The notes under the pieces were generated by a model, which made no database searches, was not told the DNA's origin, and worked only from the letters and a program-made list of their open reading frames with translations. Of a DNA stretch of 64,000 bases, positions 58,696 through 59,022 are shown piece by piece. The position numbers and the translations under genes are program-made. How positions within the stretch are numbered: position 1 is the stretch's first letter; every line of letters starts with the position of its first letter. The DNA is from Verrucomicrobiota bacterium (GTDB lineage: Bacteria; Verrucomicrobiota; Verrucomicrobiia; Verrucomicrobiales; Akkermansiaceae), in NCBI GenBank assembly GCA_004293445.1, contig RDYP01000007.1:62001-126000 (forward strand), given 5' to 3'.

Positions 58696-59022
58696 TTGCG
58701 GAAGGGCGCGGACCCTAGGCAGGCCCCGCTCGCTTGGCAATCCGATTTTCAAAGAGAAAATCCCAGCAATCGGGCCAGGCCATCAAGCCACGAACCGAGC
58801 CTCGATGTCGCGGCGCGACAACTTGTCACCACCCATGCGGCCAATATGGCGCATCTCTCGCAAGCAGCCCGCCCTCTCCATCACCTTTGAAATCACGCAA
58901 TTCATTGATATTCAGATCATGAAGACTCAAACGCCGGATCTGGCACGACGCTTGCGAAAGAGTTCCCAGCAATCGGCTCCGCTTCCATCGGTGCCCATCA
59001 GAACTCCAACCTACCTGATATT
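58696..59022 (+). promoter_or_regulatory. Upstream region of dnaK (327 bases, no gene)
   Basis: I find no gene in this gap. Besides the sigma-54 site listed separately, it holds a weak sigma-70-like pair (TTGAAA at 58887-58892, 16 bases, TATTCA at 58909-58914), an imperfect TCATTGAT/ATCATGA palindrome around 58903-58923 that could bind a regulator, and two copies of TCCCAGCAATCGG (near 58760 and 58970). No CIRCE-type inverted repeat is seen. Confidence 0.45.
58941..58955 (+). promoter_or_regulatory. Sigma-54 (-24/-12) promoter of dnaK
   Basis: The plus strand reads TGGCACG-ACGC-TTGC, a perfect match to the eleven fixed bases of the sigma-54 consensus, with GG (58942-58943) and GC (58954-58955) exactly 12 bases apart; the next base is G instead of A/T. 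Transcription would start near 58967, giving a leader of about 56 bases before the dnaK ATG. A chance match in both strands of this window would be expected well under once. Confidence 0.75.

Follow-up and report, generated by a model that had tools for sequence, protein, structure and literature searches.

The window analysed here, by which we mean the whole 64-kb stretch of DNA (G000:C12:62001-126000), belongs to a 3.35-Mb draft genome and carries, in + strand order, a threonylcarbamoyladenylate synthase gene, a tRNA-Ser gene (on the opposite strand), dnaK, groES and groEL (Table 1). The identity of dnaK given in a preliminary description of this DNA is borne out by profile comparison, the protein scoring above the TIGR02350 cut-off, and the window dnaK shares 95% identity with its counterpart in a Verrucomicrobiia MAG and 90% with that of Luteolibacter marinus, which suggests a host of Verrucomicrobiales/Akkermansiaceae type. 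Downstream of groEL the 7-mer CTGACCA is repeated in tandem about 25 times (63336-63515), and a 131-nt repeat stands in 4.3 tandem copies upstream of the threonylcarbamoyladenylate synthase gene (56870-57432); pieces related to this repeat recur after groEL, near 63192-63335 and 63500-63586, so that it looks like a dispersed intergenic element.

Table 1. Genes and predicted regulatory features of the dnaK region (positions in the window)
Feature	Position	Strand	Evidence or remark
Putative enhancer, copy 1 (weaker)	58796-58812	+	CGAGCCTCGATGTCGCG; 9/10; starts 145 nt before TGG
Putative enhancer, copy 2	58814-58830	+	CGCGACAACTTGTCACC; 10/10; starts 127 nt before TGG
Putative enhancer, copy 3	58837-58853	+	GCGGCCAATATGGCGCA; 9/10; starts 104 nt before TGG; conserved in alignment A2
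Sigma-54 -24/-12 promoter element of dnaK	58941-58955	+	TGGCACGACGCTTGC; exact match, conservation, alignment A2, spacing test
Predicted transcription start	58967	+	Leader of 56 nt; inferred from the -24/-12 convention
dnaK (Hsp70)	59023-60939	+	638 aa; TIGR02350 926 bits (cut-off 823), NF001413 951 bits
groES	61075-61365	+	Profile match; separated from dnaK by a 135-nt gap
groEL	61415-63043	+	Profile match

Upstream of dnaK the motif TGGCACG-N4-TTGC lies exactly where it had been described, with GG (58942-58943) and GC (58954-58955) spaced by 12 bases within TGGCACGACGCTTGC; the earlier distance of 68 bases to the dnaK ATG needs a small correction, since 67 bases separate the last base of the element from the ATG at 59023. 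This is the sole match without mismatches in the window. When up to two mismatches are allowed, 26 matches are found where 24.2 are expected, so the single sequence is no proof of function, and it is comparison that supplies it. Promoter scores given below count agreement with the consensus TGGCACG-N4-TTGCW over 12 positions. By the -24/-12 convention the C of the -12 GC is taken as position -12, which sets +1.

Conservation of the promoter and of an upstream palindrome

We assembled 50 named loci judged to be Verrucomicrobiota, 72 stretches from 71 family-spread genomes and the window; removal of one locus with 1 nt of upstream sequence (L123) left 122 upstreams, and removal of two duplicates left 120. 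Two of the loci (L042 and L051) were counted as Verrucomicrobiota on dnaK identity (67% and 65%). The genomes came from a set of 80, also scanned for HrcA, that we selected from 288 rpoN-scanned genomes for spread over families, with small genomes favoured. There were dnaK matches in 74 of the 80, three genomes with partial or below-cut-off matches (G063, G158 and G214) being excluded, and one upstream is that of a second dnaK in G128. One outgroup locus (L075) was dropped for its length (124 nt).

The preliminary description had put forward a search for the same site in related genomes as a check, and the site is indeed there: in 108 of the 120 upstreams that remained after duplicate removal, a GG-N10-GC site within 200 nt of the ATG reaches at least 9/12, with scores of at least 10 in 74, at least 11 in 40 and 12 in 13. 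Before the duplicates were removed, 109 of 122 upstreams were positive, against a mean of 4.5 and a maximum of 10 in 50 dinucleotide shuffles; for the same set the antisense strand gave 9 and the region from -400 to -200 gave 2 of 120. No site scoring at least 9 was found in 29 outgroup dnaK upstreams (Nitrospirota, alphaproteobacterial and other). A test independent of this scoring scheme considered the gap between TGGCAY and TGC, which is 6 bases in 80 cases, while no other spacing between 0 and 24 occurs in more than four; such a fixed spacing is the signature of a -24/-12 promoter. It also speaks against the concern that the half-site TGGCnCA of the palindrome described below, which resembles the -24 element, could have raised promoter scores slightly. 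The blocks conserved in an alignment of seven relatives (A2) correspond to the putative enhancers described below and to the -24/-12 element. This phylum-wide comparison makes the case strong: the observation is confirmed, and TGGCACGACGCTTGC is best read as the -24/-12 element of a genuine sigma-54 promoter for dnaK.

Twelve of the 120 upstreams score below 9, and six of these score 8 close to the usual position. In G162 the whole enhancer-promoter module lies about 400 nt upstream, which implies a leader of some 380 nt; in G085 TGGCACG is followed by a deviant -12 part, G184 has a poor site, and G136 has two 10-of-10 enhancers and no GG-N10-GC site. Neither promoter site nor enhancer is present in G194, which also lacks a good match to the regulator considered below. 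The second dnaK of G128 (L180) is full-length and has neither a standard sigma-54 site nor an enhancer at 9/10, so the two dnaK copies of this genome form a natural contrast.

Upstream of the dnaK promoter we found a palindromic word, TGnG[A/C]CA-N3-TG[T/G]CnCA, a putative enhancer. Within the 200 nt preceding the promoter, 35 of 114 upstreams contain GACA-N3-TGTC and 16 contain GCCA-N3-TGGC, compared with 0.3 and 0.35 respectively under Markov resampling. The outer columns, which did not belong to the seed of the motif, are symmetric, with G in 94 and C in 84 of 99 seed matches. At a score of at least 9/10 the full motif is present in 94 of 114 upstreams (Markov resamples: mean 1.4, maximum 6), a count to be read in the light of the model having been built on the same dnaK upstreams that were first scored, the independent test being the scan of regulator promoters alone. 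At the same threshold it appears in 4 of 113 far windows and in none of the 29 outgroup dnaK upstreams. Palindromes lie mostly 85-150 nt upstream, most commonly 100-101 nt before the promoter, and 41 of the 114 upstreams have at least two copies, as does the window (Table 1). Spacings between copies cluster near 13, 24, 32 and 41, which is suggestive, and only that, of helical phasing. Seven of the 114 upstreams have no palindrome at 8/10, among them that of G330, a genome with a single sigma-54 activator.

In 15 upstreams (L044, L046, L047, L161, L162, L164, L168, L170, L171, L173-L175, L178, L179 and L187) the distance from the start of the -24/-12 element to the dnaK ATG is 26-29 nt, so that, with the C of the -12 GC taken as -12, leaders of 0-3 nt are predicted in 15 of the 115 upstreams with a site of at least 8. 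Three of these are named Opitutaceae/Opitutales and twelve come from families of the same class (f3, f4, f5, f8, f10, f12, f13 and f15). Judging from this spacing, sigma-54 would start the dnaK mRNA at or beside the ATG in Opitutales-like lineages. A literature search combining leaderless, sigma54 and Verrucomicrobi found no publication.

Control of Hsp70 usually lies with either a heat sigma factor or HrcA. HrcA was found in none of 81 genomes (the host and the 80 selected), and the same search was positive in 7 of 14 named control genomes. With an 18-position CIRCE consensus (TTAGCACTC-N9-GAGTGCTAA), no clear CIRCE was seen upstream of dnaK: the closest match in the window deviates at 6 of 18 positions, and one of the 120 upstreams has four mismatches, where by our own estimate about 0.25 such would be expected. 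We therefore reject HrcA/CIRCE control of dnaK.

A candidate activator and its putative targets

A match to rpoN is present in 284 of 288 genomes, each at least 90% complete. The host protein has all three Sigma54 domains (core-binding, DNA-binding and activator-interacting) and the RpoN box ARRTVAKYRE. The four genomes without an rpoN match do not serve as a contrast: the dnaK site persists in G318, G054 and G254, in the first of these together with the regulator, and G224 has no dnaK at threshold. Since dnaK sites are retained in such genomes, the lack of an rpoN match may be due to missing contigs. About 76 nt before the likely rpoN ATG of the host (L001:510-525) stands TGGCACGGAAAGTGCT, which scores 11/12, so rpoN itself may be transcribed by sigma-54; no dnaK-type enhancer at 9/10 was found in that locus. 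Excerpts of a 2025 survey likewise contain a prediction of sigma-54 transcription of rpoN in Verrucomicrobiia (PMC12316311).

For the activator we scanned 28 genomes and searched 51 with a profile, both sets being our own family-spread selections with small genomes favoured. Exactly one sigma-54 activator (E <= 1e-20) was found in four of the 28 (G086, G107, G166 and G330), two of which are genomes of 0.9 Mb, and all four have a dnaK site scoring 9 to 11. Three of the single activators fall within the starred clade of our tree together with the host protein L113, and that of G166 branches next to this clade, at an unresolved fork. A profile of the L113 type gave one match above 600 bits in 48 of the 51 genomes (764 bits in G166), and second copies never exceeded 538.5 bits; the exceptions are G066 (545.5), G194 (483) and G136 (453, partial). 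L113 itself combines a receiver (PF00072), an AAA+ domain with GAFTGA (PF00158) and a Fis-type HTH (PF02954), and its closest solved relatives belong to the NtrC family, for example 4l4u and ZraR 1ojl. In the host its gene (at G000:C2) adjoins one for an NtrB-type PAS-HisKA-HATPase_c kinase, in which no membrane-like stretch was seen (highest 19-residue hydropathy 1.24).

Regulator operons were scanned in 20 genomes, the best 20 of the 51 profile matches, over a promoter window of 280 nt. The kinase adjoins the regulator in 12 of these loci, the host included, and no kinase does so in the other 8. In 13 of the 20 the dnaK-derived palindrome lies within this 280-nt promoter region, whether that of a kinase-regulator operon or that of a regulator gene on its own (at 10/10 in seven), where 0.7 would be expected from the 7 matches found in 56 kb elsewhere in the same stretches; its presence at both dnaK and the regulator operon ties the DNA word to the protein. 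Seven of the 20 operons have no palindrome at 9, those of G330, G086 and G166 among them. No sigma-54 site of at least 10/12 was found beside the palindromes in the 20 stretches; the two such sites in these stretches belong to G086, which has no enhancer there, and G068, where the site is 1.8 kb away. A palindrome without an adjoining sigma-54 site fits autoregulation at a housekeeping promoter. Joint loss of regulator and dnaK site, which we also considered, is clean in G194 only; G136 keeps its enhancers and a partial regulator match, and we draw no argument from joint loss.

When 1.19 Mb was scanned for enhancer-plus-promoter modules, 94 of 107 preceded dnaK, a proportion to be read with the dnaK-rich nature of these stretches and the repeated counting of overlapping ones. 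Eleven of the other 13 have a promoter score of 9, one is the dnaK module of G162 and one belongs to G318, where a second -24/-12 site (TGGCACGAGTGGTGCT, 11/12) points away from dnaK. Genome-wide, the strict enhancer pattern matches six places each in G166 and G107, of which only the one at dnaK has a site of at least 9 at 60-150 nt downstream; in G086 (three places) and G330 (one) the pattern misses dnaK and no place has a downstream site. In the host it stands at background, with 15 matches against 12 for a reversed control; of these 15 places dnaK's alone has a sigma-54 site of at least 10 downstream, L257 has a 9-of-12 site 67 nt downstream, and another precedes the L113-type kinase operon. 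The module counts and the genome-wide scans together indicate that dnaK is likely the chief conserved target of the enhancer circuit. The 135-nt dnaK-groES gap of the window contains no GG-N10-GC site.

Strict -24/-12 matches in the host genome number 47, against 31 in a reversed control, and we draw no sigma-54 regulon from them. Among the 30 examined, 29 coincide at least in part with open frames of 150 aa or longer, dnaK's own site included, and an open frame does not by itself establish a gene. The one remaining match of the 30, clear of any such frame, is TGGCCCGCTCATTGC (L085, C1:214735-214749); a 431-aa open frame follows it at 76 nt and may be another sigma-54 target. At 8675 on the + strand of the window there is a weak enhancer-plus-promoter pair (TGGCGGGTGAGCTGCA; 9/10 and 9/12), probably due to chance.

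Proposed mechanism, alternatives and significance

The reading that we prefer, with a probability of about 86%, combines the sigma-54 promoter of dnaK with the palindromes as its enhancers and the L113-type NtrC regulator as its activator. What the computations establish is where the sites lie, how well they and their spacing are conserved, which genomes carry the regulator, and that HrcA is absent from the genomes scanned; from these we infer binding, activation, autoregulation and the start site. RNA polymerase carrying sigma-54 would wait at the -24/-12 element as a closed complex, and the tandem palindromes would be bound by one orthologous NtrC-type response regulator, which, when phosphorylated, would loop to the promoter, hydrolyse ATP and open the complex. 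Synthesis of DnaK would thereby follow the internal signal of the kinase. The regulator may also govern its own expression, with a housekeeping promoter as the probable site. The suggestion in the preliminary description that Hsp70 expression is wired to an activator-gated signal thus gains support, as far as genome comparison can give it, from the presence of rpoN, the conserved site, the identification of enhancers and a candidate activator, and the lack of HrcA in 81 genomes. The signal itself could nevertheless be heat or unfolded protein.

The strongest alternative, which we consider less likely than not, is that a housekeeping or heat-shock sigma factor provides the bulk of dnaK transcription and the sigma-54 module a conditional boost. 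It is compatible with the preferred reading in all but the role of sigma-54 as the main switch. No sigma-70 consensus is known to us for the phylum by which a housekeeping promoter could be excluded, and the chlamydial hrcA-grpE operon, described as having tandem sigma-66 and sigma-54 promoters, offers a precedent (PMC7482065, PMC8762339). Against this, a sigma-70-like scan of 58500-61500 gave a single weak match (58734-58761) where 0.4 would be expected, apart from the promoter element no long stretch between enhancer and ATG is conserved in the seven-sequence alignment, and in 15 of 115 upstreams the predicted sigma-54 start coincides with the ATG.

In another reading, which we hold to be improbable, the sigma-54 promoter is genuine but some other activator, such as one of the host's L112 or L114 type, occupies the enhancers, leaving the L113 type to serve other genes. 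The host has three strong sigma-54 activators, and in G318 dnaK shares a contig with an activator of the L112 type at a distance of no more than about 2 kb (G318:C18; L186, L208). Yet four genomes with dnaK sites have a single activator, which is of the L113 type (in G166 by profile score), and in 13 of 20 genomes the L113-type operon, too, is preceded by the dnaK enhancer. L112 itself (C35 of the host genome) is a receiver-AAA+ activator to which proteins from three further genomes of the family are closely related, and no Pfam match to a Fis-type HTH (HTH_8) was found in it, which also counts against such a role. A chance match or functionless remnant, which would agree with the chance-level matches at up to two mismatches in the window and with the mostly background strict matches in the genome, is rejected as a general reading and deserves hardly any weight in view of conservation at dnaK throughout the phylum (108 of 120) with fixed spacing and of its absence from controls.

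The proposed circuit has relatives among known systems. In NtrB-NtrC a soluble PAS-HisKA-HATPase kinase is encoded beside a receiver-AAA+-Fis regulator that acts from enhancer palindromes; the kinase-regulator pair, the palindromes and the probable autoregulation are shared features. The targets of NtrB-NtrC are nitrogen genes, whereas the conserved target of the verrucomicrobial regulator would be dnaK, and 8 of 20 regulator loci lack an adjacent kinase. Bradyrhizobium has a sigma-54-linked groESL copy, and Chlamydia and Verrucomicrobiota both belong to the PVC group. Work on Chlamydia describes a sigma-54 promoter at hrcA-grpE(-dnaK) with CtcC/AtoC as activator, and thus a similar pairing of sigma-54 and an NtrC-like two-component activator at an operon of the Hsp70 system (PMC7482065, PMC8762339, PMC12282069). 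There are differences: according to the same sources Chlamydia has HrcA with CIRCE, a tandem sigma-66 promoter and, in CtcC, an activator without a DNA-binding domain (PMC12282069, PMC7482065, PMC8762339). HrcA is absent from the 81 genomes scanned here, and the L113-type regulator keeps its Fis-type HTH and has predicted enhancers.

Outside the PVC group, excerpts of a study of Flavobacterium psychrophilum (Bacteroidota) place -24/-12 motifs at the mapped starts of dnaK, groES-groEL, grpE-dnaJ, htpG, clpB and lon, and list three proteins of that genome as having a sigma-54 interaction domain (PMC9723704). The motif at dnaK is thus common to both groups, and with sigma-54 dnaK starts already mapped in a flavobacterium the verrucomicrobial case is a variant, not the first. 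It differs in that groES-groEL has a sigma-54 start in the flavobacterium and the groES gap of the window has no site, and in that those excerpts assign no activator or enhancer (PMC9723704), while for Verrucomicrobiota we can name a candidate for each. The 2025 survey, in its excerpted form, uses position matrices to predict dnaK, grpE, groES/EL and others as sigma-54 targets in a chaperone cluster for which Planctomycetota and Bacteroidota, and not Verrucomicrobiota, are named (PMC12316311). Our literature search, conducted mostly at title level, found no report of verrucomicrobial dnaK being under sigma-54 control, nor any on the enhancer-regulator pair.

Promoters of the sigma-54 type usually have low basal leak. 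If dnaK depends on an ATP-driven enhancer circuit, a sensor kinase would gate the supply of a chaperone whose gene most bacteria need constantly. The candidate activator and its DNA word are both named and directly testable, and the reading predicts leaderless sigma-54 transcripts. More tentatively, and at somewhat less than even odds, the picture may extend across Verrucomicrobiota: HrcA would be gone and replaced by a dedicated cytosolic circuit of kinase, NtrC-type regulator and sigma-54 with dnaK as its chief conserved target, and dnaK mRNA would be leaderless in Opitutales-like lineages. The need for DnaK would then explain why rpoN is nearly universal, even in single-activator genomes of 0.9 Mb, and so offer a concrete answer to its retention in 284 of 288 genomes.
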